Assembly: GCA_027604005.1 (NCBI GenBank)
Contig: JADGJT010000129.1
Coordinates: forward strand, 1 to 50,381
Origin: Dinochytrium kinnereticum
Taxonomy: Eukaryota > Chytridiomycota > Chytridiomycetes > Chytridiales > Chytridiaceae
Reading direction: 5' to 3'
Length of the DNA: 50,381 nucleotides
The position numbers were made by a program, and so were the translations under genes. The stretch's first letter is position 1, and each line of letters opens with the position of its first letter. The notes under the pieces are model-generated. The model worked only from the letters and a program-made list of their open reading frames with translations. It was not told the origin of the DNA and made no database searches. Below, in pieces: positions 4,624 through 37,705 of this stretch.

Positions 4624-4820
4624 ATGGGGGAAAGGATGTTGTTACGCCAAATGAATGAGGCGAAAGTGAATTAAATGATACGTATCTGTAGAACTAGTTC
4701 TGTCAATAAGAAATGCAGCCATAATAATCAACGTAATAGAGTGCGCATCCTCAAATAGTGATTTATTTACTCAGATGCATTGGGCCAACTCAAACACAAC
4801 CATCCATCCAACCAAGCTAC

Positions 4821-5633
4821 TTAGAACTTAGCGAACTGCTTGCCACCAGCGCCCTTGATGGTCTTCTTCTGGACCTTGAGGACGTTGAACCTAACAGTCT
4901 TGGACAGCGGCCTGGAATGAACAAAAAAATTAGCAAGATTTCAATGAAAATGAGATCGAAATTGATAACATGACATGATCGAACATACCGGCATTGTCCA
5001 ACAGTCACGACATCTCCGGCCTCGACACCGATGAAGGCAGGGCTCATGTGGGCAGCCAAGTTCTTGTGACGCTTCTCGTATCTGTTGTACTTGGGGATGT
5101 AGTGAAGGTAGTCACGGCGGATGATGATGGTCCTCTTCATCTTCGTCGACATGACAACACCAGTAAGGATGCGGCCACGAATGCTGACTGATCCGGAAGT
5201 GAAGGGGCACTTCTTGTCAATGTAGGTACCCTCGATAGCCTCCTTGGGGGTCTTGAAGCCAAGACCGACATCGTTGTACCAGCGCTTCGGCCCACCCTTC
5301 TTCTTGGCAGCCAACTTTGAGTTGAGGAAAATCCCGGCCTGACGTTGGAAAGCCTTCTCGGTCTGAAAGATATGGATGATGGTGAGTGGTTGCGCGGAAA
5401 GAGTATTATAATGCTCTGAGTCCAGCATGAAGATCCAACATCCAAATCCAACATTGAAATACAAATTCGAAATCCAACTCCTCATAGCACTGTTCATACA
5501 TGTGCCTTTATCCCTCCCGCGCACCCGCCGTAGCGGTCGATCCGTCCATCATGCATCCATCTCTCTCATGGCACCCGCCCGGGGCAGCATCCCACTGTTG
5601 TTGAACGAGCAGCATACGCACCTGTTCAGCCAT
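4821..5633 (-). CDS. RPS11: 40S ribosomal protein uS17 (RPS11)
   Basis: A cytosolic small-subunit protein of 158 aa, the same length as human RPS11. Exon 1 is only 12 nt (5633-5622, MAEQ). Exon 2 is 5362-4989 and exon 3 is 4911-4821. Recognisable stretches are [82 protein letters not shown] and [20 protein letters not shown], covering the full family. The large 5' intron (5621-5363) after a tiny first exon is typical of ribosomal protein genes in intron-rich fungi. It diverges from MoaC across about 136 bp. Confidence 0.96.
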
Positions 5634-5769
5634 TTTTACAAAGTGGTTCCTTGGGGTGGAAGAAAAAAGAGACTGAGCAACCAAAATTCAAAATCCAACT
5701 TGTCCTGCTGGCTGCGCCATACCCCTTTCTACCATTCCCAGGGTGGAAACGATTATAGTGGAAACTCTG
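5634..5769. promoter_or_regulatory. Bidirectional promoter between RPS11 and moaC
   Basis: The only DNA between two oppositely oriented start codons (RPS11 ATG at 5633, moaC ATG at 5770) is 136 bp, so it must carry both core promoters and both 5' UTRs. No clear TATA box is visible. RPS11 regulation may also draw on its 259-nt first intron. Confidence 0.5.
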
Positions 5770-6294
5770 ATGCTGCCATGCAAGAGACTGCAGAGGGCCG
5801 TCGCGGGGTCGTCAAGGGCATCATCGACCCTTTCGCATGTCGACGCTTCCGGCAAGGTTTCGATGGTCGGTGTGGCTCACAAGTCTGAAACGCATCGGGT
5901 GGCAAGGGCTTACGGGCGTGTCCTGTTCTCCGATGCCCATGCGTTCTCCCTGCTCAAGGAAAATGCTATTGTTAAGGGTGATGTTCTCACCGTATCGAAG
6001 ATAGCCGGGATCAATGCCGCGAAGGCAGCAGGTCAGCTTGTTCCACTTGCGCATCCGCTGTCGCTGTCACGCATAGCCTTGGATCTATCATTGGTGGATG
6101 AAGCACAGGCCGTTGACATTGTTTCCACGGTGGAATGTGTGGGTCGGACAGGCGTAGAAGTGGAGGCCATGGTGGCGGTCTCAATAAGTGCTTGCACAGT
6201 CTTTGACATGTGCAAGGCCGTTGATAAAAAGATACGCTTGACTGACATTCACGTCACGCACAAGACAGGTGGCAAGAGTTCAACAGCCGTTTAA
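5770..6294 (+). CDS. Cyclic pyranopterin monophosphate synthase MoaC, stand-alone
   Basis: MoaC converts the product of the radical-SAM enzyme MoaA into cyclic pyranopterin monophosphate, the first stable molybdenum-cofactor intermediate. The full family core is present in order: LSHVDASGKVSMVGVAHKSE, VKGDVLTVSKIAGINAAK, LVPLAHPLSLSRI, GRTGVEVEAMVAVS and the signature CTVFDMCKAVDK, then KTGGKSSTAV at the end. The open frame extends to a GTG at 5743, but the first ATG is 5770. It gives MLPCKRLQRAVAGSSRASST, a basic Ser-rich stretch consistent with mitochondrial import. There are no introns; 174 aa. No MoaA domain is attached. Many fungi and animals encode MoaA and MoaC from one gene (cnxABC, MOCS1), so separate genes are notable. 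Its stop lies 20 bp from the stop of the convergent flippase gene. Confidence 0.92.
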   Translation: MLPCKRLQRAVAGSSRASSTLSHVDASGKVSMVGVAHKSETHRVARAYGRVLFSDAHAFSLLKENAIVKGDVLTVSKIAGINAAKAAGQLVPLAHPLSLSRIALDLSLVDEAQAVDIVSTVECVGRTGVEVEAMVAVSISACTVFDMCKAVDKKIRLTDIHVTHKTGGKSSTAV

Positions 6295-6314: not shown

Positions 6315-9300
6315 TTATTGTGGGGCCGTGTTAGTACGTACAAACAGAGGTGTTGAACTTGTTCTCTTTGGTACTTTGGGAGGATCTTGGATCTCCATCT
6401 CAGCAGCACAGACGCTGTGCCTCCCCATAATGATATCCCTCGCGCCAGGCGATTGGGAAAACGAGTACCCTCTGTTCCTTAGCATCTGGCCAGTCTTCAT
6501 GACAGTCAGCATGTTGACCTTTTCCACTGGTGCTGATAATGCGTCATCATTGAAAGCTTGTTTAGCGGGTGTCCGTGCAACCGATGCCATGGAATACATT
6601 GACCCAGAACTGTGTTGCCTCTCCACCTCTACTGCTGTCAGTGCAATGGCTGGGATATCTGGCTCGCTTCGCGCTGATCTCGGTGGTGGCTCAAAGTCCG
6701 GAGGTAGGCGACTGCCGGACGAAAAGCGTGGCTCATCAATTAACATCGGCTTACTGAGCTGTTCTCCAATGCTTAGAGCTTCATGTTTAAAATCGCTTCC
6801 GATACTGGGTCTGTATTCACTGCTCCGAGCCATATGCTTGAATGATACAGGTTCGATGGCAGCTTGACTTCGTTCAAAACTCATAGCCCTGCCACAATCG
6901 TCCATGGTGACAGTGTGGCCTCTTCTTTCTTGAAGAATGTGCACATCCGTCGGGAAAAAACTTCGTTTCCCGTACAGAAAGATGATTCGCGGGAATTGGC
7001 AAAGAAGCGAGGTGATCAACAGGTTCAGCCAAAATAGCGGAGATGCAAACAGAGGTCCTACGATTCCAGGAACAAGTGAGAAGGGGAATACCGAATATAT
7101 GGCCGTGTATAGGAACGGAAGTGCCTGAGTGATGACCATAGTGGCTATGGATAACGAGTTCCAGCTATTCATGTTCACCGCAATAAACGCATTGGCGTTC
7201 AAAACTGCGACGATGGAGAGTACCACTGAAAGTTCTGGTTTCTCCAGAAGGCGCCCACCAGAATCGAATGCAACCTCACCAAATCCAAAAAAGATGAAGT
7301 AAAAGCAGACGATTGCCTGATACGCAGACTCAACCACGAAGCATGTGAAGCGAAGAAGTGTGAATGGGGCGAATCTTCTGTCGGCTCTGTAGGCCATGGG
7401 GAAAGCAAGAGCGGTGATGTCTGAGATGTCTTGATCAAAGACTCCCATGGCGATAACTGGTAGTGACGATAGCACCACATTGTACAATAGCCTGAGATTA
7501 TGTCAGAAATTGATAGGAAGTAAATCATAAAGTTGAAGCCTTACATGAACGTCAGATCCAGATTTACCTCGGCCGAGAACCCACAATAGATCTGAAACCA
7601 GAAGAGACAGAATCTAAAGGAATCGAAGTCACTTAATAACCTTATTCACAGAATTGGAATCCAAAAACTTATAACATACACCCAAATTAAGCTCTTAAAG
7701 AAAAAGTTCAGAATCATTGACGCCGTTCTAACGTAAGACCAATGCCCATGCACAAGAAGAAGACGTAACAAAAATCGAAACTGCCCGATCGCATAATCGG
7801 ATGCCATGACAGCCTGCAATCCTTCCTCTCCCGCAATGCCAACACCAACATTTGCCGCCTGGATCATGCTCACATCGTTTGCGCCATCCCCAATAGCAAG
7901 GCAAAGTGCATTGCGCCGTGACTTGACCATTTCAACCACTTGCGCTTTTTGCAATGGTGATACTCGGCAACAGATCACTGCCCCGCAGCGAGTTGCCAGT
8001 TCCAAAAACACCTCTATTGTAGATGGATCTAAGGCGTAGACAAGGGCGCTTCCATCGATGACCAATCCATAAATTTCTAAGAGAGTGTCAGGATTTTTGC
8101 CTGGTGCGATCGCCTTGCCATCCTTTGAAAAGGAAAAATCCCAAAAGCGTGTCAAGGCGTCAACAATTTGTTGGTGGATGACGTCTCCCCTTAGATCCTT
8201 CCCATTTTCTCCTTTGATTAGTATAAGATTCATGTCCTTCGTAAGCAGATTACAGGATAATCCAATGTTGATAGCAGTCTCCATCTTGTCACCCGTAAGG
8301 ACCCACAACTTTATTCCAGCCCGGGAAAGCCGCTCTATGCACTCTGGCACCCCATCCTGGAGTTTATCTTCGATGGCCGTGGCTCCTATTAAGAGCATGT
8401 TTTGCTCAATCTCCTCGGCGACGGCATCTATTTTTTCCTCCCGATCGGATAATGAGATAGCTGCTTCGTGATATTTCTTTGACCATTCCGAGTAGACACC
8501 TTCCGGCAGTATGCTATATGAAATGCACAAAGTCCTCAAGCCTGTAATAAGAATCGTTAGGAAAGGTCAAGTAAGGGTATGTATATGTTTAAAATAATAT
8601 CTTGCCTTCTGTTGCAAAAATTTCCAGATGACTCGCTGTTATATCTTTTATAGCCTCTTGCCCGGGCATTAACCTCTCATAGATTACCGAATCAGCCCCT
8701 TTACAGTAAAGTACAATCTCCCCCGCGGGCCGCCTAACGATGACGCTCATGCGCTTTCTGGTAGAATTAAACTCAATGATGTTGAGCATGGTACAATTCT
8801 CTTGCTCGCCCAAAACATCAACCGTTATAGAAGACTCTGCTCGCGACAGAAATACAAACCCAATATCCTTTGCAGCCTGCACAAGAGCAGCCTCATCCGG
8901 ACTTTGAGAAAGGTACTTTATCGCATTAGGACCGTTTGAAATGTCACCGGAGACCAGCACCGAGTGGCAGACGGCTAAAGAGGTGAAGAAATCTCGTATC
9001 GCGCTGTATTGCCCGCATGCTACGTTCGTGATCTCACTTTGAAGTCGGGTGTCAAAGAAGGCTGGCTCTTTTTTAATGTCTTCGTCGAATGAAAGAGTTT
9101 TCCCGGGAGGGGCGGCAGAGTCGATTGGTCTATCTAACACAGGTGCTATTCTCTTCTTTCTCGCTCGAATACGGTGTCGAGATTTCATGGATACTTTTGA
9201 GATCCTATGACCTGCTGCGATAGAATTGCGTCCAAGCATATCACCCGAATGTCTCAACGCGATAGCTGTTAATGTTGTTGTGGAGCTCCGAACAGAGCGG

Positions 9301-11163
9301 TGAAAGTTGAATACTGTAGGTAGAGCGCCACCATATATAACACCATTGATGGAACATTTTCGGAATTGCATGATATTTTGTGTTAAAGTTCCTATTTTAA
9401 AATTATTAGCAGAGCCCATTATCTTTTTCAAAGTTCACCTGTCTTGTCGCTAAAAATGTAATCGATTTGGCCTAAATCATCCGCTAGATTCCAACTTCGA
9501 GGGAAGCAAGGCTGGTCAATTTTCTCGAAATACATCTCCAAGTCCATAGAAATGAAAAATGCCTTCCGAAGCAAACAGTCAGCATAATATTTGGTACTCA
9601 AAAATAGCTTACCTGAAATGTCTTAACGATTTCTAGTGTGATGTACAGTGATATAGGTACGATGTTTTGAAATGTGATGAGACTTGCCCTTTAGTCATAA
9701 CTTTGATTAGGTACGGCAAAGTTTTTACATTAAATACCAAAATGCTATGAACCCTTCCCATACCCAAGATATAGGTGATGCGCTAAAGCTACTAGTTAGC
9801 CAGAGCGGCTTGATCGCGCCTTGGAGATGACGCCATTCATCATACGGAGTCATAAAACTCATTAATATGCTTAAGACTCCCAAGATGACGAGATTTGCTG
9901 TGCTATTCGGATAGTCATTTTTTGTATATCAAAGGAGTTCATAATCTCTAGGGGGGTTTACAAAGGCGACTTACACTTGATGGTTCATTCCGATATCAAT
10001 CCTCGATTGTTTCGATGGTGTTTCTCCAGCATTCAAGCATATCTTGGTCTCCTCTCCAGTAAATATCACTAGACCTATCAACCAGTCTGTATTCCGAAGC
10101 ACGCAACCTCGAAGAAGGTACCCGCTCATACTCAGTGGAACACTAAGCAGCTGATTCGAATCCTCAAGATGAATCGTATTCACTTCGCTCTCCCAAACAG
10201 AGCTCATACTCTGCAAACAAGGCGACATGCTATCATGTCCCAACTTCTCAGCTACAAACGAAATGGTAGAAGGTGTGAATATGGCGGTACTCTTGAAAGA
10301 GAAGAGGTTCGAATTGGGTGGCTCAGATTCGATACGAAATTGGAGTTTATCAAAGTCCTTCATCGACTTTGGGTCAAGAAAAGATGTTTCGCTGAGACCT
10401 TTTCGGATCTTAAGGTTGGTTTCTCCGTCAAGGTTCTTAGTCTCTACATAACAGAGGCACTCTGGCTCTGAGGTCGCTAAAATCGCAACATCCGCAGGTA
10501 TCGCTTCGTCGTTACGAAGCAAAACAATGTCTCCAACCTTGACGGAGCCCCACATTGTCTTCCTCCATGCTTCCGGCGTCGACCCCGGTTCAAGTTCCTC
10601 CTGTTTCAAATTTAAGCTTTTCGTCACTGATGCAGGCGGCTCGGTCGACCCGGGAGGTCCCTTGCATTTATGGAAGGGTGCGTTGGTGTTTCGCCATGAA
10701 CCACTTAAAACCGACGATGCCTGTGAGTTCATGGCGATGTCCGACTTATGCCTCTTCCAATCTTCCATTCCATCCTTTGCAGCCGTCATCAAAATAACCG
10801 CAGTGAGAGGTATAGCGGCAACAAACGGGTTGATTGTTTGGTACTCTGGAAAGAACTGCAAGATCACCAAACACAGAAAGAACATGTTCGCTATCCTCCT
10901 ACGCATCGAACGAATAATCAATTACTTTAAGCCACTATATTTTATAGAGTTTTCATTGGATCTCACCTGAACTGCTCATAGAGATTCTTAAAGATGAAGG
11001 TGAATACTGTGTACTTGGTCGTTCGAATAGAATTCGGCGGAAAGCTTTGCACTGGCTTCCCGCCCTTGAACAGATCCTCAGAAGGCTCAATATTCACAAA
11101 CACCTTTCGCGGCGGACGCTCCTTGGCCGCATTCGGACTCATCTGCTTAATGCTGGTGGCCAT
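6315..11163 (-). CDS. P4-type ATPase, aminophospholipid flippase (Dnf/Drs2 family)
   Basis: A lipid flippase that moves phospholipids to the cytosolic leaflet. The N-terminus from 11163 has KVFVNIEP and NSIRTTKYTVFTFI, typical of P4 enzymes. The actuator domain has NLDGETNLKIRKG (P4-type DGET). The phosphorylation motif DKTGTLTQN is rebuilt across an intron that splits DKTG|T near 9408-9443. The nucleotide domain has LSQSPDEAALVQAA and LYCKGADSVIYERL. TGDKMETAINIGLSC and the hinge GDGANDVSMIQAANVGVGI follow. Then come six C-terminal membrane helices and a long Ser/Pro-rich cytosolic tail of roughly 200 residues, probably regulatory. About 1,450 aa over around nine exons. All catalytic residues are intact. 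The exact subclass is not decided, and no CDC50 partner lies in the window. Confidence 0.93.
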
Positions 11164-14460: not shown

Positions 14461-14813
14461 CGATTTCATTACTCTGTACTCTTCCAAATACATATTATTA
14501 TAAAAAAATAAAAACATTATTTGAAGATATGAAGATGGATAAGAAGTAAGGAATTCTCGCTCTTTATCGCCTCAGAGCGTAGTCTCTATAAAACTCCTCA
14601 AAGGATACTTAAAAAAAGATAACAAAAACAAAACACCGCACCCCTCACTCAATACCATTCGGCTACATGATATCGCTCAAACCTCAAATAGTTATATTCA
14701 AAACATAAAGATAACAACTTTTCTAGCATAACTTCCCTACCCAAAAACAAAAAAGAAAAAAAAAAGAAAGATAAACACTAATTCAACTGACTACGACATA
14801 AGGTTATGTGATA
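14461..14813. other. Intergenic, AT-rich
   Basis: About 350 bp downstream of the ATG7 stop, with long A and T runs. One short minus-strand frame near 14570-14610 reads FEEFYRDYALRR before a stop and could be a tiny exon; support is weak. No RNA gene or repeat seen. Confidence 0.35.
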
Positions 14814-17800
14814 TCATTCATCCTCCCCTTCCATCCACTCAACATCTCCGGCATCGGTATCGTTGAATAGTTCCAAAAGCCCCGTCACCTCTTCAAGATA
14901 CTTTGGGGATGCAATAACTTTTTTCATGAATCCATCACGGTCAAGGTCAAATTCGTTAAGAATCTATTAATATATGGGATTCAAAAACAAAAAAAAAAAG
15001 AGGTTATCAGACTAAACACTCAAAGCAGAAAAAATCAAGAATTAAGGTAAAAAACAAAAGCTATTAATCATCGACTGCGATATCTTTCCACCGTTTTCCC
15101 ACCCTGGCCACATGAAAGCAGAGAAAGAAAAAGAGCATAACAAAAAGTGTAGGTATATCCATGCCAATGTAAGTAAGCAAATCACCTTATCTGAGCAAGC
15201 AATACAGCGGTCATACCCCTGTCCCGAAATCAACAAATTCGTAAAATGTGCCAAGAACCCCCTAATCTGATGTGGCACCAATCCAAAGAAATTCGGAGTA
15301 GGCTCCGTAGGATCTAGCGGTTTATCAGCGTCCGCGAGTGCCCTAAAGATTTATAGTCGTAGTTGAGGGGGATGTAATTAATAAAGAAGGGTTGCTCTAA
15401 GTTCTGCTCTGGATAGAGTGGGGAGAGAGAGAGAGAACAAATAAGGAGGAGAGGGCGGGGCTGAATACATGATTTCTTACCCGTCAGGATGGTTTAAAAT
15501 AGATACTAGAAGCTCTACTGCTTGTCCACCAGCAAGTAAAGCCAAGCCCGGTCTAGAAACAGTACACTGCTGGTCTAACGTTCGATCGCTCAACGACTAC
15601 AAACCAGATAGATAAAGGAGTTAACGTATCGACGACATGATAAGGAAGACACATCAAAAAAAAATTAAAGAAATAGGAGAAAAACAGAAACGACAGCCGA
15701 GATATCTAACGGAAAGAAACAAAGACTTACGTCTCGTGGCGCCACGACGTCATTACAGAAATAGCATCCAAGGTTTTGAGTTTGCCCCTCGATACCACGC
15801 ATTCCATGCCGCATAACGACAAATGTATCAAACCCTATCGCAGCCGTAATAACAATCTGTAGAAAAGGAATGGAAACGATTCAGCCTGAAAACAAAGTTC
15901 AACCGATACACCAACCGAAGGATCAAAAACTCACAAAGACTCATACTGCAAAACAAAAAAAGAAACGGCTCCTTATAGAAAAACAATTGATACCTTCTTC
16001 ATCTTCGCGCCTAAAACCGTCGGCAACCACCTTGCTTCTCGGCTATCAGTCAATAAAAATACCGCATCATGTTTGTCAATGAGGCTTGATAACTCATCAA
16101 CACCTTTCATAAGTGCTTCGTCCGTTGAAGCGGCATGGCCCGGCATGGGAATCGACATTGAAACACCTTCAGTCACCTATGCAACCAGATCCACAAAACA
16201 AAAAAAATATTCAGGGTTAATCCAAAACAAGGGACATGATCCAACCACCCGCCCATAAAACAAGTGAAAAGCAATGATATAAAAGGTGGCAAGAACTAAA
16301 ATAGACATAATTCGTCGAAAAAAAACAAAAGAAAAAGAAAAAAAACAACATAGATATATATCTTACCACTCCCGGAAACACCCTCTTTAAGCCATCCGCA
16401 GCAGCCTTAGCCTTAGGCTTTCCACCGTCCAAGCAATCTTCATAAGTGAAGAGGGGTTGGCGAACCGGGTTAGAGAAGGAGACGGTACCGTTATCAACAA
16501 ATGTGACGTGTCGAACGCCCCAAGCCTGGCAAAATAGACAAACCGAATATCAAGTCAAAACAATTTGATGACATAGGTTTAAAAAAAAGATTCAGAGAAA
16601 ATCCAGTAAGGGCTTCTACTGCTCTTTACTAAGAAAGAAAAGGGAGCTTCTGAAAAAACACGATTGATTAGGGTTATGGTTACCAGCAAGGCTCGAGCGA
16701 CATAGCATCCGAGAGTGCCCGATCCGAGGAGAAGGCATTTTGTGCCAGCAATTTTTTCGAGATTGATCCCGGGCATGATGCGCCATCTCATCAGCTTTAG
16801 ATTAAGGTCGACGGCCGTATCCGCAAGTCTGGGTATAAAAAAGGGGTTTTTTTTTTAAAAAAAAGGTGAGTACGCATTACAACTATAGTAAAACAGCAAA
16901 TGAAAGAATAGGCTCTTACTTCATAGGATCCATTAAAGGCGCCAAATCAGCAACCCTCGGCCCCAACTTGCCACCACCATTTTTTTCCCATCCAACACAT
17001 TTCGGCATCTCATCCGGCAGGTCTCCTCCAGGCATCTCCACCTTCAACCAAATCGTTGGCGAAATATCGCCCCCATGCTCCCTAAAACAAACTACCTGTA
17101 CCCTCGACACATCAAAAGCATCTTTCATTAACGCCAAAAAATTACGAAGTGGCCATCCAGGGTTTGAAGGAAGACTGCTGGGGTCAAAGAAACCTATTAT
17201 GCGGTCCTCTGGTGGAGTTGCTGAGAAAAAGGATTGAAAGCTTGAGAGGGAAGAAATTTGGATTGTTGAGGAGTCAGGAGTGGTCTTCAGAAGGAAGAAG
17301 GGGGATGATTCGGGAGTTGCACGGAAGGCTCTTATTGTGGCGTGGAGAGATGTAACCTAAATATACGACATACAAGCGTGAATAAGTTACGAATATATAA
17401 CTTTGCAAGCAAAAAAAACTGGGAGTAGATCATACCTGATCAGCGGTCCACACGTCTTTCAGAGGTCTGACACGTTCCCCAGGAGCTAGCGTAAAAAGAT
17501 CGGGAAGATTGAAGGCTGGGAACGCAAACCAAAAGTAAAACTTGTACTTTTTCAAATCAGCAAATGTCAACAAAAGGAATTTGGTGAGAATCGATGGATC
17601 CTTCAAAGCTTCTTTGGACTTAATTGCATCCCATATCTACAAAGAAAAATGAAAGAAAAAAAAACAAAATCAATATTAAAAAAAAACGCCTTGGCGGTTA
17701 AGAAAACCTTTCTTCCGACCGAAGCAATTGCTTCTGCTTTGTCAATCGCTTTAAAATCTTCTATGGTATTGGTGTTCAGTAAAACGCCGGGTGCTTTCAG

Positions 17801-27766: not shown

Positions 27767-29239
27767 TTAGTGGATCATTGCCAAAACAACGACAACAGCA
27801 GCAGGCATCCAGACACCAACGGCCGACTCAATTGCTCCCGAAGGAACGATAAGGGATCCATCAAGGGGAGGCTTGGTGGCTCCAGCACCGTACCCAGTCT
27901 CAGTGGCAACTGGGCCTGACGAGGTCTTGCTAGAAGCAATAGATTTCGTCCTCGTCTTAGTGGAGACTTGACAGACGACGGTTCCATCGACGGCCACAAC
28001 ACAGTCATTGCACTTCACGGAGCCGTTGGGAAGGGTTTCGCAGTTCTCACCAGGCTTCTCGTCGTCGTCGTGGGAGCCGCAGTGCACTTCGCCATCGGCA
28101 TGAACATGGCTTTTGACGGGAGAAGAGAGATTACAATATCAGTTAGGACTGGGTCTTCGTCATGATAATAGGAATATACCAATCATCGTCATGGTCGTCG
28201 TGGTCGTCATGGTCGTCATGGTCGTCGTGGTCGTCATGGTTATGAGGAGTGGTGCTTGCAGCTGGGGCAGAGGTGGTGGTTATAGTGACGACGCTGGTTG
28301 CAGTGATAGATGCAGAAGTAGTAGACGAAGTGGTAGGAGCCGTGGTTGCAGTAGGAATCTCGCATTCCTTGTTGGTGCTCTCAAACTTTTTTTAATTATT
28401 AGTTTAGAACCTACTCTTAACAGAAAGCGAATTACCGGGACATCACTCACCATCACCTTGCCGATCTTGCAAACATCATCAGCGTACTTGTATGCCTCTT
28501 TGATGTACTCGTCAGGTTTGGCACCGCAAAAGTTTTTCCCCTCAACACACTTGCGAATGGCGTCACGAGCCGTGGAGCTGCACACGCACTTGAGTTGGTC
28601 GCAAGTCGGCGTCGCGAGCAAATCCCAGCCGGTCTGGGGTCCGCAAGGGGCGGCGGCATCAAATGTAGCTGTGTAGGAGCACTCGTCGAAGCAATCTTGG
28701 TCTCCAATCGGAGGGGGTGGCTTGTTGTTAGGGTCAGGCAGAGGAACCCAGGGGAGCCAGCACTGGTGGGATTTTCCATAGGACTCAGGAGGGAACTTGA
28801 ACCCGACAAATAGAAAAAAACTTTCGTTTAGAAGGAGAACACATCCTGAAGAAGCAGAGTTGGATAACAAGAGAAGGTCACGCATATATCTGAAAGAACT
28901 TACATGGTCAACTTGGTGTTCGCAGAAGTCCTTAGCTCTCTTCAAAGCAAAAGCATCATCTCCGCATTTCTCTCTGCGATTGCACTCGACCACCTTATCC
29001 CACCAATCAGTGTGGCAGGAGCACTGATAGGTAGAGCATAAGCCATGATCGGACATCTTTGTGGAGGTGCCGCACGGGGAGCTGGCAAGGTCGGCGGCGG
29101 CCTGGAAGCATTTTCTAGAAAGACATTGGTTTGCAGATTGCTGACGAGCGAGGAGAATATGGGTAGAGGCATCGCCAGAGGCGGCGGAGGCGACTTGGAT
29201 GACAGCAAGAGCGCTGAAAAGAGAGAAAACGAGATTCAT
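27767..29239 (-). CDS. Secreted GPI-type Cys-rich protein with (His-Asp-Asp)n tract, candidate metal-binding
   Basis: Four exons (29239-28904, 28795-28451, 28379-28180, 28109-27767) join in phase to 407 aa. The signal peptide is MNLVFSLFSALAVIQVASA. Module 1 has nine Cys, including CSC, CNRREKC and the ending CEHQVDH. Module 2 has CFDECSY, CVC and further Cys but lacks the His-rich ending. A Ser/Thr-rich stalk follows, then six HDD repeats, DDDCHVHADGEVHCGSH (a dense His/Cys cluster) and a C-terminus GAIESAVGVW followed by a short hydrophobic tail, typical of a GPI signal. The module pattern is CFEM-like (CxC-x9-C-x5-C-x13-C) but the spacing differs from canonical CFEM. No known family was recognised. 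It diverges from the multi-module gene at 30155. A cell-wall or membrane-anchored metal binder is the best inference. Confidence 0.75.
28184..28243 (-). repeat. 9-bp coding tandem repeat, (HDD)n
   Basis: About six copies of a GAC-GAC-CAC/CAT unit read on the minus strand encode alternating His-Asp-Asp. The array lies inside exon 3 of the 27767-29239 gene, next to an intron, and is prone to slippage. Confidence 0.85.
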
Positions 29240-30154
29240 TTTCAGGGGCAGAAAGGGTGGTAGAGAACGGGGGGGGGAAGACGAGGGAGGTTCTTTATAA
29301 GAGGAATTCGAGAACGGCAGAAACCTCATAAAGTGAAAGCAACCCTCCTGGTGGCCTTTCGCATTTTCTTTTTCCCCTCGGCCGCATGGCTCTCTCTGTC
29401 TTCTCGGTGTGAGGGTTCACTTGCAGTGACATCCGGCCGCTTTTTTGACTCTTTTTTTTCTATGTTTTTCCCCAATCACCCATGAAAAGTGAAAAAGAAA
29501 AATGAGAACGGAGTAAAGAAAAAGCAAAAAAGCAAAAGAAAAAAAGAAAAGGTTGAAAAGGCTGGTTAAAACACAAAGGACACCCACTGTGAACAGAATA
29601 TTCCCCGAGTGTTGCTAACTCAACCCCAAAGGTACTTCCTGCGTACCCTCCTGGCCGCACCAATCAGCGTGCTTTCTTGTGATGAACACAAGGCTGCAAC
29701 CGAAAAGTAAAGTTTATTTAATCCTCACAAGGCAAAAGGGCTGACCAATCATAAAATTTCCTGTCAATAGTACTAACACGACCAGCAAAAATCCACCGAG
29801 AGTTTAAGCATTCATTTACTCGTTTATTATTAAGCATCAGATGTAAACATGCAAATATCTACAAGTTCAGTGAATGTTGCGTAATGTCAAAAAAAGGAAG
29901 AAAAAGAAAAGAGGCAAAATCAAAGAATAATTGCAGTGCTACCATGCAGAGAGTGATGAAAAAGACACGGATGAAAGACAGCAAAACAGTGCAAACGAGG
30001 GCACCCTTCCGGCTGGAATGGCAACTATGCACATACAATTAAATCATACATCCCAAATAGTTCGGGGTTAATGCCAAAAAACTCTTATAAGTAGCGCGGT
30101 CTTCCACGTTCTTCGTCTTCACCAACCTCAATCCTTTCTCCTTAGAACGCAGAA
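29240..30154. promoter_or_regulatory. Shared divergent promoter region of the first secreted pair
   Basis: 915 bp between two divergent starts. A TATA-like TTATAAA on the minus strand (29294-29300) lies about 55 bp before the ATG at 29239. TTATAAG on the plus strand (30085-30091) lies about 64 bp before the ATG at 30155. CCAAT words occur near 29660 and 29742. I searched by eye for the yeast Zap1 zinc-response palindrome (ACCTTNAAGGT) and did not find an exact copy. Confidence 0.55.
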
Positions 30155-31138
30155 ATGCAGCTCTCTTTGATCTCCACCTTCATTGCCTCTTTGGCAGCTT
30201 CACAAGCCTTTGCCCTTCCTCAGGCTACCGAGACCACTTCGGTCGAGGCGCCTCTCCCTACCTCAACAGAGACTCCTGTTGAGCCCGTCCCTGTTTACCC
30301 TTACATTGCCGACTACGACACCAGTAAGTCTTTTTCCCAGTTCAAGTGCATTGTTTCCCCTTCACCCATCTTATCCCTCACACTCATTCGTTTCACTCTT
30401 TCATCACAGCGGTTTCCGAGTGCCTTTACAGCTGCTACTTCCAATCCACTTGCCAGGAGATCACCAACGCTGGTGGAAGCCTTCATGATGAGGACGAGGC
30501 CGTCAGGGACTGTGTCTGTGGTAGCTCCTTCTTGAGCTCTGTTGCCGCCTGCGACGTCAGCACCTTGTGCCCTGAAGCCCGGTCCGAAATCGTCGCCAAG
30601 GTCAACGACTTGTGTGTTCACGTAAACGAGCACCTTGAAGAGGACCACGACCACGACCACGACCACGACCATGACCATGACCACGACCCCAAGCCCACCG
30701 CCACTACCACCGAGGTTCCTGTCGTCCCCACCACCACTATGGACGCCACTCCAGTCCCGACCGAGACTCAGAGCCCCGTCGAGCCCGTCCCTGTTTACCC
30801 TTACATTGCTGACTACGACACCAGTAAGTTTTGACAGTTCAAGTACATTGTTTCCCCTTCACCCATCTATCGCTCACATTCATTCGTTTCACTCTTTCAT
30901 CACAGCGGTTTCCGAATGCCTTTACAGCTGCTACTTCCAGTCCACTTGCCAGGAGATCACCAACGCTGGTGGAAGCCTTCATGATGAGGACGAGGCCGTC
31001 AGGGACTGTGTCTGTGGTAGCTCCTTCTTGAGCTCTGTTGCCGCCTGCGACGTCAGCACCTTGTGCCCTGAAGCCCGGTCCGAAATCGTCGCCAAGGTCA
31101 ACGACTTTTGTGTTCACGTAAACGAGCATCTTGAAGAG

Positions 31139-31173
<35 letters not shown>

Positions 31174-31679
31174 TGTCCACGACCCTAAGCTCACCGCCGC
31201 TAATATCGAGGTGGGTGTCGTCACCCCTATGGACGCCACTCCGGTCCCGCCCGAGACTCACAGCCTCGTCGAGCCCGTCCCCGTTCACCCTTACATTGCC
31301 GACTACGACACCAGTAAGTCTTGACAGTGCAATTACATTGTTTCCTTCTCCTTCACTCGTCGCTGAATATCGCTAAATATTTTTTTCTTCTTCTTTCATC
31401 ATTTTAGCCGTCTCTGAGTGCCTCTACAACTGCTACTTCCAATCCACTTGCGTGGAGATCACCAACGCTGGTGGAAGCCTTCATGATGAGGACGAGGCCG
31501 TCAGGGACTGCGTGTGCGCAACCCCTTTCTTGAGCTCCGTCTTTACCTGTGACAGGAGGTCCTCGTGTGTTGAGTCTCGCGCTGAGATTGCTCTCAAGGT
31601 CAACGACTTGTGCGCTCACATTAACGAGCACCTTGAGGAGGACCACGACCACGACCACGACCACGACCACAGCGCCTAA
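30155..31679 (+). CDS. Secreted three-module Cys-rich protein with (Asp-His)n tails, candidate zincophore-like protein
   Basis: Four exons (30155-30323, 30410-30823, 30906-31313, 31408-31679) join in phase to 420 aa. Signal peptide MQLSLISTFIASLAASQAFA. Exons 2, 3 and 4 each encode one module: C-x3-C-x5-C-x19-C-x-C-x10-C-x5-C-x14-C in exons 2 and 3, ending C-V-H-V-N-E-H, or C-A-H-I-N-E-H in exon 4. A tail of 7, 6 or 5 Asp-His pairs follows. Modules are linked by Thr/Pro-rich spacers ending PVEPVPVYPYIADYDT. Exons 2 and 3 and their preceding introns are almost identical, a recent tandem exon duplication; exon 4 is diverged. It has no membrane anchor, so it is probably released. His-rich tails and position near a ZIP transporter suggest zinc or copper binding. 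No named family recognised. Confidence 0.8.
30324..31313 (+). repeat. Tandem duplication of intron plus exon
   Basis: The block from 30324 (intron 1, exon 2) is repeated from 30824 (intron 2, exon 3). The first about 230 nt of the two exons differ at only a few bases, and the introns share long identical runs such as CATTGTTTCCCCTTCACCCA. Divergence rises toward the His tail and the linker. Confidence 0.9.
30642..30683 (+). repeat. (Asp-His)7 coding hexanucleotide tract
   Basis: Seven GACCAC/GACCAT units. Equivalent tracts with six units (about 31139-31174) and five units (31641-31670) close the other two modules of the same gene. Confidence 0.9.
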
Positions 31680-32633
31680 ATGTGAGGCTTTCCTTTGCCT
31701 GATCAGTTATTGAGCTGTACGCCTCTTTCCCTGTATAAGACCAGCGATGGGCCTCTTTTGATTTCCGTAATCAAGTTCAATAAACTATGCTCTATTGATA
31801 TGAACATCTAAATGTCATCTGCTGTCTTTGTGCATTTTGTCGATATACTGATTATGCTTGGGATCAGAAGACTATTCACATCACATTAGGTAAAAACCGA
31901 TCAAGTACATTCATTCTGCTAACGGTGATAAAAATCGCCATCAGCCTCAGGAAAACTTATTTGCAGGTATTCTGTCGGGGTTTATTGAAAGTAGGCGTTG
32001 GAGGTCACCAACGCAAATCAAATAACTGGTGTCCATTTCCATCATTGAGCACCTTCCTGGCCTAATTTTTGAGGTTGTTGTATTGGCGAAAGACAAGCTG
32101 TTGTTGGTGTGAAAAGTGAAAAAAAATGATGACAACTGCAACGCTCTTTGTGTGTAGGATTTAGGTGAAAACCACATCCTGGAAAGTTTTCCAGTGGTAA
32201 TCCTGAGCATGGATCAATATCTTGCTAGTGCAGAATAACGTTAATTGTATTGTCATTCAGAATTCGTTTGATCATTATCAACTTGCGGCAAAGTTTTACA
32301 TTCGTCTAGAGTTGGGACTGAAAATGATGGTTCACTCTCAATACTAATCTTCAACTCTTTGATATCAAATGGAAAGAAAAGACAAAAGGATGAATTAGAT
32401 GATAGCTTTATTTCAAGTAGAATTCTCCAAATAACAAACCAGCCATCATTTAGGAGCCACAAAAATAAACCAAAATCAAAACTCAGAAAGTAGGAGAAAG
32501 GAAAAGAGGTCCGCATCAAATTCCGATGAAGTCTTAACCGAAAAATTGTTATTGAAATGATAAAAAAAATGGCCATCCATATGACCTCAGAAGTCAGTCC
32601 AGCAAGAGCCCTCAGCTCATCGAGAAGTTTGGC
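31680..32633. other. Convergent intergenic region
   Basis: About 950 bp between the stops of the two convergent secreted-protein genes. Short minus-strand frames (31947-32210, 32253-32576) have no signal peptide or recognisable motif and I do not call them. No repeat or RNA gene seen. Confidence 0.5.
31779..31784 (+). terminator. Polyadenylation signal AATAAA
   Basis: AATAAA lies 100 nt after the stop of the three-module gene, in T/A-rich sequence. Confidence 0.5.
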
Positions 32634-33470
32634 TTAGAACAAATAAACCCATGACAAAACAGCTGTGGCGAGACCAAATGCAGCAGCGCCAAGAGATGCC
32701 GAAGCACCAGCACTCGACGGCCTAGAAGAGGTGGTGGCGGCGGTAGTCGCCCCTGGAGCCACATTGGTAGGAGAGATCGTGGTGGTTCCGGCGAGAGTTG
32801 CAGAGCCGGAGGGCACAACGGTCGAGGGGAGGGCAGACCCCGTACCAGTGGCAGAAGCGCCAGCTGCGGAAGAAGTCGAGACAGCGGATTCAGGGGCAGT
32901 GGTGATGCCAGCAGGGGCAGAAGTGGCGGGTCCTGGGACTACGGGCTCAGGGGCGTTGGAGGTAGGAACAGGAGCAGGAGGAGCGGCAGTGGAGGTGGGA
33001 CCGCCGTCGACACCCGTGATCAGGGTACCGTCGTCATTCCACTGGATTAGCAGGAATAAAGAAACGAGCATCAGTATCAAGAGCATGAATGCGCACTCGG
33101 TTATTGGTGTTGACCTCGTTAATTCAATTCTATTGAAAACAAGACTTACGTGCTCTCCAAGATGTGCGCAGTCATCCTGAGCCATAGACAAGGCTTCACT
33201 TCCAGCGGCCGCGGGAGAAGAAGCGTCAGAGCATTGGCGGGTGATGGCACATTGGGTGGCGATCTCCAAGAACCTGGCTGAGCATGAGCACTCAAAGACG
33301 GGGCGGGATTCATGATCATTAAGGTCAAGGCCGGGGCTGCAAGGAGGCGGAGCGGTCCTGGCAGCCTGATTGTAGCACCTGCGCATGCAGAGCCTGTCAA
33401 TGGCGGCGAAAGCCGACGACGAAGCGAGTGCGAGGACAAGGAAGATGGCAATGAGGCCGCGGGAGAGCAT
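32634..33470 (-). CDS. Secreted GPI-type single-module Cys-rich protein, paralogue of the 27767-29239 product
   Basis: Two exons (33470-33150, 33041-32634) give 242 aa. Signal peptide MLSRGLIAIFLVLALASSSA. The single module runs CMRRCYNQAARTAPPPC, then FECSCSARF and further Cys, ending DDCAHLGEH. This aligns with the first module of the 27767-29239 product (CLSRKCFQAAADLASSPC, CSCH, DFCEHQVDH). A long Ala/Ser/Thr/Pro-rich stalk and a hydrophobic C-terminus (FGLATAVLSWVYLF) fit a GPI-anchored wall protein. The intron is exactly 108 nt, lies after the same module residue and in the same phase as intron 1 of the paralogue, and is stop-free in frame. There is no His-rich tail. It diverges from the ZIP transporter gene, with about 410 bp between starts. 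Confidence 0.75.
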   Translation of the reverse strand: MLSRGLIAIFLVLALASSSAFAAIDRLCMRRCYNQAARTAPPPCSPGLDLNDHESRPVFECSCSARFLEIATQCAITRQCSDASSPAAAGSEALSMAQDDCAHLGEHVSLVFNRIELTRSTPITECAFMLLILMLVSLFLLIQWNDDGTLITGVDGGPTSTAAPPAPVPTSNAPEPVVPGPATSAPAGITTAPESAVSTSSAAGASATGTGSALPSTVVPSGSATLAGTTTISPTNVAPGATTAATTSSRPSSAGASASLGAAAFGLATAVLSWVYLF

Positions 33471-33879
33471 AGCTGATGGTTCAAACTAGAGGAGGGAGGG
33501 TGGGCAGGGAGGTATGTGACGATTTAACCCCAAGGCAGAAAGTCCCTCTTTTTAAGGCATGGGGAAGACGAGGGTTGGAAGACAAGCGGGTGAGAAGGCG
33601 GATAACCAGCCCGTCCTCAAAGCACAAAGCAAAGGACTTGTATCACAGCATGGGTGGGACAACAGTGGTACAAGGGTTATGAGTACCTCTCTGGTTACAC
33701 CCCTTGTCGCTCCGAAGGGAGGAGAAGAGGAAGGAGAAGAGGAGAGGAGGAAGGAGGAGAGTGCGAAAGTTTCGGTGTTGTTGCCTGCGGGGAAATAAAT
33801 AGAGCTGCCATCCCCCACTTTACCATCACCACTGATCCCTGACCCTCCTCATCTCCTACACCATCACATCTCCCTGTCA
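33471..33879. promoter_or_regulatory. Divergent promoter between the GPI protein and the ZIP transporter
   Basis: About 410 bp with a purine-rich (GGAGGA/GAAGAGGA) run near 33710-33770. TTAAAAA on the minus strand lies near 33550 and AAATAAATAG on the plus strand near 33793; both are possible core promoter elements. Shared control of both genes is an inference from the layout. Confidence 0.45.
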
Positions 33880-35937
33880 ATGCCCTCCAAATGCCTTGCT
33901 GGCTGGGGCCGTAAAGGTTAGCAGCAGTCAACTCTTGCCAGCGCTCGCTCTTGTCTTTGTACTGCGACATCAAAGACAGGCTGTACTAATCATATACATT
34001 TTCCCACATCCTCTGCACTGCCAGCCCTCGTCTGCTGCCTCGTCAGCGCTGCCGCTCTCACCCAAGTCTCGGCACAGACTCGCGGCGAAGGCCACAACCA
34101 TGATGGCCACGACCATGACCACGGTTCCGAATCAAAAGGCAACATCATTGTCGAGCACAAGCTGAACCCGGCTGCTGAAGGCTTCACCCCAAGAGACTTC
34201 GTCGCTGACATGTTCGCTGAGTTTGGCTCTGGCTTTGGTGCTTCCCGTGCCATGACCCTCGACAACATGGTCCGCGTTTACCAGGCCATGTCCATCATTG
34301 GCGGAGAGTCTGAGGTGGACCCCCATGCTGGACACAATCATGGCTCTGCTTCGAGGCTTCACAAGAGACAGGCTGGTCCTTCGAATGCGAGCGACGTGCC
34401 GGAGTATGATCCTGTAAGTTCTAGCTTGGCACAATTTCTTCCTTTCAAAACTGCCTCAAGACGGCCTCTGGCGTTATTTGACCATTTTTCCCTTCATGAA
34501 AACCCCAGTGCCTTCTCCCTTATGACCTCATGACCATCTACGGCTTCAACACCACTTCAGGTGTCACTCTCCCGCAGTTCCAGGAGCTCACCCCCGCACT
34601 CGTATACGTCTCCTCTGCCAAGCTCTGCAAGAACAAAGTTTTTGCCATGAATGAGACTGAAACCAGTACCAAGCCACGACCCACTACCACTCAAGTATGG
34701 CTCTACTCAATTGCTGCCAACACCATTGTCACTTTGAGCTGCATGATCGGTATTGCTTTTGTGCCCTTCATGAAGAAGTCGCCGTTCATGGCTGATTTGC
34801 TATTGTCGCTCTTCATTGCCCTGGGTGCTGGAACCTTGATTGCTGACGCGCTCTTACATTTGATCCCCCAGGTGATTTTCTTTTTGTTTCTAGTCATCTC
34901 TCGCTGAGCAGAGTCACTCACATCCTTCTTGTTATCAGATCCTCGGTCTTCACTCCCACGCCATCGGGGAGGAGCACGACCACGACCACGGCTCCATTGA
35001 TTTTATCAAGGATTTCCCTTACATCTGGAGTATGAGTCTTGTCATGCTCGGTCTTTACATTTTCTGGTCTGCCGAGCAAATACTCAACTACATCCACTCC
35101 ACTTACTCTCACAAGCACATGCATGCGCATGCTCATTCTCACTCCCACAACCACGCAGTCGTCTCCTCGAACGATACCGCTGAGGAGAAAAAGGGTGAGG
35201 TCAAAAAGATCTCATTGTGGCAGGAGATCAAGACCGTCAGACCCGTTGCTATCTTGATCTTGTTGGGTGATTCACTTCACAATTTTGTTGATGGGATGGC
35301 TATTGGTGCTTCGTTCTCGATCAGTGTCAAGCTTGGGTTAACTACTTCAATTGCTGTTCTCCTTGTAAGTTCCCCTTTTTTCTCTTTTCATTATTTCCTG
35401 ATTCGTCTTTCCCTTTTATGTGTTTTCTCCTTTGGATGGCAAATACTAACAACCCTATCAATATCTACATGCATCCAAATGCAACAGCATGAGATGCCCC
35501 ACGAGCTCGGAGACTATGCCATCCTTTATTCCTCCGGTTTCTCGGCGCTCCGAGCTGGTCTTCTCAACGCCGCCTCCAACCTAACCTCCTTCGTCGGCAT
35601 GGCTCTCGGAATCCTCGTCTCAAATGCTGCCGCGACCCACCAAAAGTCACAAGAAACCATCTTCGCGATTGCTGCAGGCATGTTCCTCTACATCTCTCTC
35701 TCAGATCTCATGCCCGAATTGAAGGCGGTACACGCCGTCTCTTCTCAAGGTTACGTGGAGGTTGGTGGGGAGAAAGCAAAGGATACCGTCGAGCTTGAGA
35801 TTCAGGAGGAGGCGGCTTTAGTCGAGCCTATCCACCCATTCTCTTGGCCCAGGATCTTCGCACAGCATTTGGGTCTTGCCCTTGGATGGTTGGTGATGGT
35901 GCTTATTGCTCTGTACGGAGAGAACATCAAGGTGTAA
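33880..35937 (+). CDS. LIV-1-type ZIP (SLC39) zinc transporter with His-rich segments
   Basis: Five exons (33880-33916, 34025-34413, 34509-34871, 34939-35364, 35488-35937) join in phase to 554 aa. The first exon is inferred: MPSKCLAGWGRK spliced to ALVCCLVSAAALTQ gives a signal peptide. The extracellular part starts with HNHDGHDHDHGS, has HAGHNHG, and carries TPALVYVSSAKLC just before the first helix, resembling the CPALLY/PAL motif of animal LIV-1 ectodomains. Membrane motifs are DALLHLIPQ, HNFVDGMAIGASF in TM4 and HEMPHELGDYAIL in TM5, an exact HExPHExGD LIV-1 signature. A cytosolic loop has HKHMHAHAHSHSHNH, and MFLYISLSDLMPEL follows. It should import zinc (possibly Fe or Mn) into the cytosol. 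Beside three secreted metal-binder candidates this suggests a dedicated uptake locus. Confidence 0.9.
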
Positions 35938-37018: not shown

Positions 37019-37705
37019 ATGCAGGATCCACTCGTCGTCGCCTTCATGGTGTTGTCTTTGGTCCTCACCATTGTTGAACTTGTGGCGCGAGTTGCTGGCC
37101 ACTTCGACCCCGCTGCCAGAGGCCTCAACCCCATCATCAACCCGCTCTCCGAATACGCCGCCCGCAAAAACTTGAAAAAGTACTTTACGCCTATGTTTTG
37201 GTTGGGAATCTTCAGCTCTCTCTTCTTCTTCCTGGGCATCCTCATATTCTACATTCGCTATAGCCCAAACCTCAACGAACCGCGAGTTATTCTTAGCCTT
37301 ACTATGTTTGGCATATGTCCGGTGGCGGAGTTTCTGACCTGGGCGTTACCCCTCCGCATTAAGGATCCCGGTCTGGAGGGCGATGAATCCGAACCTGTCA
37401 AGTACAATCACGACAGCAGAGTCATAGACTTTCTCCACTGGGTCTTTGCAGTCATTGCCTACGCCAGCTTTCTCGTCGGTGCAAGCAACCTGCCACGAAC
37501 ATTTTACCTATTCCCAGGGACATACCTAGAGCAGCAAGGAAAGTTGTTGAGTTATCTTGCATATGCCGGGCTGGCATCGATTGGAGTGATGATTTTCTTC
37601 GGCCACTGGTTGAAGGTATTCGGATTGTTCCAAAGGCTGTACACAGAAATCTGTACTGTTTGGTACATAATCATATCTGTCGTAGTAATCCGCGACACTG
37701 TTTAA
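37019..37705 (+). CDS. DUF998-like six-helix membrane protein
   Basis: A single-exon protein of 228 aa. Hydrophobic segments are at about residues 6-25 (VAFMVLSLVLTIVELVA), 60-80 (FWLGIFSSLFFFLGILIF), 92-112, 135-152, 178-196 and 205-223. The loop after helix 1 has LNPIINPLSEYAARKNLKK, and the end has GLFQRLYTEICTVWYIIISV. 'Npl.SeyA' after TM1 and 'Gl.eRly....'-type text near the last helix are how DUF998 proteins look, so I assign that superfamily tentatively. Function unknown. It lacks the His motifs of the neighbouring ZIP, so a link to metal transport is not supported. Confidence 0.55.
   Translation: MQDPLVVAFMVLSLVLTIVELVARVAGHFDPAARGLNPIINPLSEYAARKNLKKYFTPMFWLGIFSSLFFFLGILIFYIRYSPNLNEPRVILSLTMFGICPVAEFLTWALPLRIKDPGLEGDESEPVKYNHDSRVIDFLHWVFAVIAYASFLVGASNLPRTFYLFPGTYLEQQGKLLSYLAYAGLASIGVMIFFGHWLKVFGLFQRLYTEICTVWYIIISVVVIRDTV

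Follow-up and report, generated by a model that had tools for sequence, protein, structure and literature searches.

At positions 27767-35937, the stretch of DNA analyzed here, a 50,381-nucleotide contig of the aquatic chytrid Dinochytrium kinnereticum (Chytridiaceae) referred to below as the window, carries a cluster of four spliced genes, which we call A, B, C and D. The cluster probably encodes an extracellular zinc-capture system, which would scavenge zinc in the manner of Pra1-Zrt1 from unrelated parts. It points to a means of zinc gathering in early fungi that has not been described so far. The gene structures, the homology of Cys-rich modules in A, B and C, the restriction of these modules to the cluster at the sensitivity of our searches, their ligand-type residues, a zinc-arm motif in A and partial synteny in relatives were established directly. 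From the sequences we infer that the modules and tails bind metal, that this metal is zinc and that D imports it.

In the mechanism we propose, B would be secreted and released, and each of its three disulfide-rich helical modules would present an H-x-x-E-H site and a flexible (HD)n antenna, so that one B molecule would carry several zinc sites. A and C would carry the same kind of module, tethered to the wall or outer membrane by glycosylphosphatidylinositol (GPI) anchors, with A adding an (HDD)n tract and a Pra1-like CHxHxxGxxHC arm, and both would retain zinc near D or pass it on there. D would be a plasma-membrane ZIP of the LIV-1 subfamily that imports zinc and has a His-rich ectodomain. 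The boldest part of this proposal is a relay from B through A and C to D, suggested by analogy with the heme relay of Candida. The four genes would presumably be co-regulated. Zinc is favored as the metal because of the type of the ZIP and the arm motif.

Modules, tails and putative importer of the cluster

N-terminal hydrophobic segments were found on all four proteins, the weakest in B (best 15-residue mean 1.59). A has two modules of nine Cys each, and B and C have three modules and one module, respectively, of eight Cys each. A preliminary description of the locus had claimed three secreted proteins with related Cys-rich modules beside a LIV-1 ZIP, and both own-genome searches and a profile comparison agree with this. 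When gene C was used as a query against the 22.43-Mb, 558-contig assembly, in which the window is contig C129, A was found at E 2.4e-4 and B at E 3.7e-4 to 8.7e-4, and all six matches listed up to E=10 lay inside the window. The gene A query found C at 6e-5 and the gene B query found C at E 0.02 only, with 4 of 4 matches inside the window in each case. Comparison of C-type and B-type module profiles gave a probability of 89% (E 2e-6, 52 columns). Identity among the module types of A, B and C is 20-31%, and A and C have a phase-0 intron at a common position, directly after the H-x-x-[ED]-H codons. Judged by these comparisons, the modules of A, B and C are homologous beyond chance.

No convincing module was found outside the cluster in searches of the 22.4-Mb assembly, at the sensitivity of these searches. 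Two module proteins of relatives gave matches elsewhere: P0003 in two of four cases (E 0.024, with internal stops, and E 0.22) and P0001 in two of seven (E 5.9e-5, falling on the His/Asp tail that a BIM1-like protein carries, and E 0.034). The searched assembly is incomplete, since P0007 (HDU67_009634), a second LIV-1 ZIP of D. kinnereticum on a 6,883-base contig, matched only D there; statements that a feature occurs only here are therefore valid for this assembly alone.

Nine modules were aligned: those of C and its Phlyctochytrium planicorne ortholog, A1, A2, B1-B3 and two of the four in P0001, the Chytridium lagenaria ortholog of B, whose other two were left out as 98-100% identical to one included. 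Apart from Cys, eight of these nine (A2 left out) have just three invariant residues in gap-free columns, one Asp and two His; another four columns are limited to Asp or Glu. The Asp sits in the loop between the third and fourth Cys (C3-C4), and the His residues stand at C8+2 and C8+6, forming Cys-x-His-x-x-[Asp/Glu]-His. Because several of the eight rows are closely related (B1 and B2 are 98% identical), the weight rests on the three types A1, B and C and their orthologs. The invariant Asp and His pair, new in this analysis, strengthen the earlier interpretation of the locus as a zinc-capture system.

The modules are predicted by AlphaFold2 to be all-helical, at a predicted local distance difference test score of about 90 for C (residues 31-110) and 72.5 for B, and both His residues of the predicted B module lie on the last helix at i and i+4. 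A search of the module profile against the PDB gave nothing convincing (best E 0.039), and no Pfam model calls the module in scans of A, B, C and the single modules. Several matches below cut-off were set aside: PAN_3 on B (6e-4, 20.0 bits against 21.1, over 25 residues at the start of module 3), Med8 and HEAT on B, Mucin on the Thr-rich linker of P0001 (6e-8, 33.2 bits against 34.7) and weaker Pfam matches. NCBIfam gave nothing near cut-off on P0001.

Long His/Asp tracts had been claimed for two of the secreted proteins and are present on A, as one (HDD)n tract with a longest H/D run of 19 residues, and on B, as three (DH)n tracts with a longest run of 15. The distribution of GPI-type C-terminal hydrophobic tails likewise supports the earlier view of B as released and of A and C as GPI-type: such tails occur on A, C and the P. 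planicorne ortholog of C, and not on B or its C. lagenaria ortholog. All four modules of the latter keep CLHIQEH and an E(HD)n tail, and the first lacks its first Cys. Within D. kinnereticum, B3 is 75-76% identical to B1 and B2; within C. lagenaria, modules 2-4 are 98-100% identical and module 1 is 68-70% identical to them; B-type modules of the two species are 52-61% identical. Since modules are more alike within than between species, the repeats must have been amplified or homogenized in each lineage on its own.

After its (HDD)n tract, the tail of A (27971-28109) has three consecutive C-x4-[DN]-G-x-V-x-C hairpins, with His ligands in the first only. This first hairpin reads CHVHADGEVHC and has six of the seven fixed positions of the Pra1 arm motif CHTHXXGXXHC (V for T), and B and C lack the motif. 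By chance CHxHxxGxxHC arose in 0 of 200,000 shuffles of A and in 9 of 200,000 shuffles of its His-rich tail. None of the 97 proteins retrieved contains it, nor does any six-frame translation of the window and loci; that scan cannot see the copy in A, whose first codon is interrupted by an intron. A search of the genome with the tail of A found only the tail itself, and a search of the PDB found nothing convincing (best E 0.16). Local repeat divergence of the hairpins is possibly the origin of the arm. This Pra1-like arm had escaped the preliminary description, whose interpretation it strengthens.

The (DH)n tract of B is similar to the His-rich tract of the bacterial zinc-uptake protein ZrgA, whose Pfam model matched it below cut-off (1.6e-4); this model tends to respond to any such low-complexity tract, with 0.078 for the tail of the BIM1-like protein. 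The gene of that protein lies elsewhere in the genome, where tandem secreted BIM1-like genes (PF20238, copper acquisition type) occupy C410:13310-16513 (match 14810-15013). The first copy matched in pieces of 27.4 and 24.2 bits against a cut-off of 27 and has an HDHDHD tract before a GPI-type tail; the second was named by eye.

Gene D matched the Pfam family Zip (PF02535) at E 1.5e-58, with 199 bits against a cut-off of 35.1, and EF-hand_Zip (PF21116) at 1.8e-7, and its ectodomain matched the ZIP4 structure PDB 4x82 at 6e-4. TPAL is found at residue 170, HNFVDG at 377 and HEMPHELGD at 406. We take HExPHExGD to be the signature of the LIV-1 subfamily. HEMPHELGD opens with His, not Glu, which presumably marks it as a zinc-type and not a ZIP8/14-type motif. 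With Zip domain, signature motif and PAL-motif ectodomain all present, D is by its sequence a LIV-1 ZIP, as had been described. In a midpoint-rooted tree of 25 rows hand-chosen from 94 listed, ten chytrid ZIPs group (100/98) with other zoosporic-fungal rows, apart from animal LIV-1 ZIPs, and D falls among the chytrid and blastocladian ones. Second paralogs of Dinochytrium and Chytridium fall in one clade with P. bullatum (96/98), and the tree does not resolve the branching order among module-linked ZIPs. All four module-linked ZIPs read HELGD; of six other chytrid ZIPs, four read HELAD and two are off pattern. A second ZIP in the assembly, on contig C502, reads HNLPEG, which we take to be a ZupT/Zrt3-type rather than a LIV-1 motif.

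Parts of the cluster were found in two relatives, and all three genera belong to Chytridiaceae. In C. lagenaria, the longest contig listed has 124,683 bases both for P0001, with its four B-type modules, and for the ZIP P0005 (65% identical to D over 84%), and this identical length would place them on one contig. The P. planicorne protein HDU97_008195 is an ortholog of C (55% identity in the module) and has consecutive tags with the LIV-1-type ZIPs HDU97_008196 and HDU97_008197; for all three the contig listed has 9,107 bases. The presence of two such ZIPs (P0006 and P0013) next to this C ortholog suggests a duplication of the importer at the locus. The database searches for relatives needed shared 5-residue words and similar length, and returned 1 of 31 candidates for B and 2 of 5,256 for a profile of A and C. 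Synteny in other chytrids, which the preliminary description had proposed as a check, was found for B with a ZIP in C. lagenaria and for C with a ZIP in P. planicorne; from neither relative did these searches return A or the full set of genes.

Alternative explanations

Several observations weigh against zinc capture by the cluster. All four genes were seen together only in D. kinnereticum, and no ortholog of A was returned by the word- and length-limited searches. Gene C has no His/Asp tract (longest H/D run 2), module A2 lacks the Asp and His ligand-type residues, and in the predicted C module the last helix ends between the two His residues, with only the first inside. Fold searches with the predicted modules gave no PDB match above noise. 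The tracts of B are near-pure (GACCAC)n hexanucleotide repeats that could expand by replication slippage. His/Asp tails do not specify zinc, because the BIM1-like, copper-type protein of the same genome carries one, and copper may be the metal instead. Finally, the Zap1-type element ACCTTNAAGGT, allowing up to 2 mismatches, has 24 sites in the window, of which one (2 mismatches) is in the A/B promoter and none in the C/D promoter.

The most serious competitor, which we still consider unlikely, is that the cluster buffers or detoxifies metal (zinc, copper or cadmium) at the wall under excess, with D recovering some of it, so that its role would be protection and not scavenging. Sequence cannot tell capture for uptake from sequestration. 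A wall buffer would suit multivalent (HD)n tracts and GPI-type anchoring, a His/Asp tail is also found on the BIM1-like protein, and the repeat unit of B has been multiplied, to three in D. kinnereticum and to four in C. lagenaria, as selection for dosage would favor. However, in each of the three genera seen the linked membrane gene encodes a ZIP of importer type, and B is unanchored in the two species where it was found, which suits foraging.

There is a smaller chance that A, B and C are ordinary surface Cys proteins, such as adhesins or wall proteins, that stand beside a ZIP by accident and whose tracts are products of slippage. Many wall proteins of fungi have Ser/Thr-rich stalks and GPI-type tails, and the repeat purity of the B tracts would fit such an origin. 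Yet a linked ZIP is seen again in other genera, with different partners, slippage does not account for the zinc-arm motif in A, and at about 20-31% identity between paralogs conservation is confined to Cys and metal-ligand-type residues.

The least likely explanation, which we consider improbable, is that the modules are divergent CFEM domains of heme or iron relay proteins, with a ZIP that imports iron or is incidental. The CFEM fold is a helical basket. C-type modules have eight Cys, with C-x3-C, x11, CxC and x10 spacings that fall within the CFEM consensus, and the Candida heme system is likewise reported to combine secreted modules with GPI-anchored ones. When the nine modules were scanned singly, no Pfam family but CFEM responded (E 0.05, the P. 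planicorne module), and CFEM responded in 0 of 25 Cys-fixed shuffles. This match to PF05730 has 14.1 bits against a cut-off of 22 and concerns one of nine modules, and E 0.05 is near noise because six other families reached E 0.1 or better on the same shuffles, in one shuffle each. The modules depart from the consensus PxC[A/G]x2Cx8-12Cx1-3[x/T]Dx2-5CxCx9-14Cx3-4Cx15-16C: C, A1 and A2 fit x8-12, CxC and x9-14 and misfit at C3-C4, C6-C7 and also C7-C8 (13-20). The C3-C4 loop has 16-19 residues, with an extra Cys inside in A1 and A2, against about 5-10 in CFEM, C6-C7 has 5-6 against 3-4, and C2-C3 of the B type is x5. Invariant His pairs with (HD)n tails fit zinc better than heme. No CFEM chain was among the fold-search matches listed, a result that favors neither side.

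Gene models, promoter words and neighboring genes

Splice signals and open frames served to rebuild the gene models, and all 11 introns across A-D start with GT and end with AG; for intron 3 of gene A, one of the GT/GC-AG choices tried preserved the frame. The models bear out two divergent gene pairs back to back, A (-)/B (+) followed by C (-)/D (+), with B and C convergent (Table 1). The model of C is identical to the public D. kinnereticum protein HDU67_001219 (P0002) and that of D is 100% identical over 100% of HDU67_001220 (P0004), in line with the zoosporic-fungal origin proposed before. Public proteins thus support C and D, and the models of A and B come from splice signals and open frames alone, our searches having returned no public D. 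kinnereticum protein for either. For the public contig carrying C and D the listed length is 55,219 bases, against 50,381 for the window contig.

The longest word common to both divergent promoters is the 14-mer CCCTCGTCTTCCCC, with three copies in 22.4 Mb, two of them at the cluster (reversed-word control, one). Three 12-mers are common to both promoters, a number matched in 0 of 200 Markov shuffles. A degenerate CCCTCGTCTTCCCC pattern has three exact matches in the window, a partly circular count as the pattern was written from the same sites, and one match with 1 mismatch at 23718. No word of this type was found upstream of gene D, and its order relative to a TATA-like box differs between A/B and C. 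The third copy, on contig C484 (3027-3040), follows a TATAAAAGG box at a distance of about 25 bases and stands before an NMT1/THI5-like gene. We read CCCTCGTCTTCCCC as a core-promoter or paralogy feature and not as a zinc element.

Elsewhere in the window, a MoaC-type molybdenum-cofactor reading frame (5743-6294, +; PF01967, 3.9e-44) lies near genes for ribosomal protein S17 (4817-5524, -) and, in pieces, a P4-type flippase (about 6315-10921, -). Downstream of gene D on the same strand, a reading frame at 37019-37705 (+) has a sub-threshold DUF998 match (25.6 bits against 30).

Table 1. Positions of the genes of the cluster and of features within and beside them, numbered in the window
Feature	Position	Strand	Description
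Gene A	27767..29239	-	Secreted, GPI-type, 409 residues; four exons, 28904-29239, 28451-28795, 28180-28385, 27767-28109; signal peptide, modules A1 and A2, Ser/Thr linker, (HDD)n, three C-x4-[DN]-G-x-V-x-C hairpins, GPI-type tail
Gene A, exon 1	28904..29239	-	Signal peptide and module A1, ending HQVDH, followed directly by a phase-0 intron
Gene A, exon 2	28451..28795	-	Module A2; Cys pattern kept, without Asp and H-x-x-[ED]-H residues
Gene A, (HDD)n tract	28180..28246	-	End of exon 3; bounds approximate
Gene A, CHVHADGEVHC	28079..28109	-	Pra1-like zinc-arm motif; first Cys codon split by intron 3 (28110-28179)
14-mer CCCTCGTCTTCCCC	29274..29287	-	Just 5' of gene A
Variant of CCCTCGTCTTCCCC	30111..30123	+	Just 5' of gene B
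Gene B	30155..31679	+	Secreted, unanchored, 420 residues; exons 30155-30323, 30410-30823, 30906-31313, 31408-31679; three modules, EED(HD)n after each, own intron in each repeat unit, no GPI-type tail
Gene B, HVNEH of module B1	30619..30633	+	After eighth Cys; same motif type in B2 and B3
Gene B, (DH)n tract 1	30643..30690	+	Bounds approximate
Gene B, (DH)n tract 2	31139..31183	+	Bounds approximate
Gene B, (DH)n tract 3	31642..31670	+	Bounds approximate
Gene C	32634..33470	-	Secreted, GPI-type, 242 residues; two exons, 33150-33470, 32634-33041; one module ending HLGEH, Ser/Thr/Pro-rich stalk, GPI-type tail
14-mer CCCTCGTCTTCCCC	33561..33574	-	Upstream of gene C
Gene D	33880..35937	+	LIV-1 ZIP, 554 residues; exons 33880-33916, 34025-34413, 34509-34871, 34939-35364, 35488-35937; ZIP4-type ectodomain, TPAL, HNFVDG and HEMPHELGD motifs, His-rich ecto- and loop segments

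Comparison with known systems

The C-terminal CHTHXXGXXHC peptide of the Candida zincophore Pra1 is reported to bind zinc, and the authors suggest that flexible C-terminal arms may forage zinc and load the His triad (PMC12663325). Two chytrid Pra1 proteins are reported there without the CHTH arm and some ascomycete Pra1 proteins have lost it (PMC12663325), so the arm is not strictly defining for Pra1. PRA1 is reported to be present in a chytrid but non-syntenic, and PRA1-ZRT1 synteny to have arisen in Dikarya (PMC3386192, PMC12663325); the first of these papers reports synteny with PRA1 only for direct ZRT1 orthologs (PMC3386192).

Genes C and D resemble PRA1-ZRT1 of Candida and aspf2-zrfC of Aspergillus in that a gene for a secreted candidate zinc binder is divergent from a ZIP gene. 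The His pair at i and i+4 has the form HRXXH in Pra1 and HxxEH in the chytrid modules, and flexible His-rich arms are present as CHTHXXGXXHC in Pra1 and CHVHADGEVHC in gene A. The division of Pra1 into core and arms is also seen in B and A, on an unrelated scaffold. Unlike Pra1, the chytrid scaffold is a repeated eight-Cys helical module with two GPI-type partners, A and C, and C is divergent from a LIV-1/ZIP4-type importer instead of a ZRT1-type ZIP. Pfam scans found no HRXXH domain (PF13933) in A (residues 1-295 and the tail separately), B, C or the modules, so the independence from Pra1/Aspf2 that had been proposed stands at the family level. An own-genome search for PF13933 was silent, but no control genome responded either, and absence from the genome is therefore not established.

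The CFEM relay of Candida (Rbt5, Pga7, Csa2) also passes a nutrient through the wall by Cys-rich modules, secreted and GPI-anchored, with partly similar Cys spacing. The chytrid modules differ in having no Pfam CFEM call, a long C3-C4 loop, added HxxEH and (HD)n elements and a ZIP as the linked membrane gene. Among the Chytridiomycota covered by a published survey, CFEM is reported to be missing (PMC4530338). Bacterial ZrgA and ZnuA combine a structured zinc site and a disordered His/Asp-rich tract beside an importer, as here; in contrast, the match is to a low-complexity tract only, with no common domain, and their importer is of the ABC type, not a ZIP. In V. cholerae the His-rich loop of ZrgA was reportedly not essential. 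Animal LIV-1 ZIPs (ZIP4/12/6/10) have, like D, a Zip domain, an EF-hand_Zip/PAL ectodomain and HNxxDG and HExPHExGD motifs, whereas D is of chytrid lineage and linked to module genes. In the open-access literature on chytrid zincophores, zinc acquisition, CFEM, LIV-1 ZIPs and D. kinnereticum, the portions available contain nothing describing this locus.

A bolder proposal, which we put forward tentatively and as more doubtful than zinc capture itself, is that the cluster represents a third independent origin of a scavenger with a linked importer, after those of bacteria and Dikarya. A CFEM-like eight-Cys scaffold with HxxEH and (HD)n added would then pass zinc from B to A and C and on to an animal-type ZIP, D, and would have converged on both Pra1 motifs. 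If this is true, early fungi solved linked zinc capture separately, in Chytridiaceae, with unrelated parts, and evolution has repeatedly arrived at the i, i+4 His pair and at the CHxHxxGxxHC arm. Naming the genes in three chytrid genera makes zinc capture in zoosporic fungi directly testable, and the cluster may prove to be a zinc counterpart to the CFEM heme relay.

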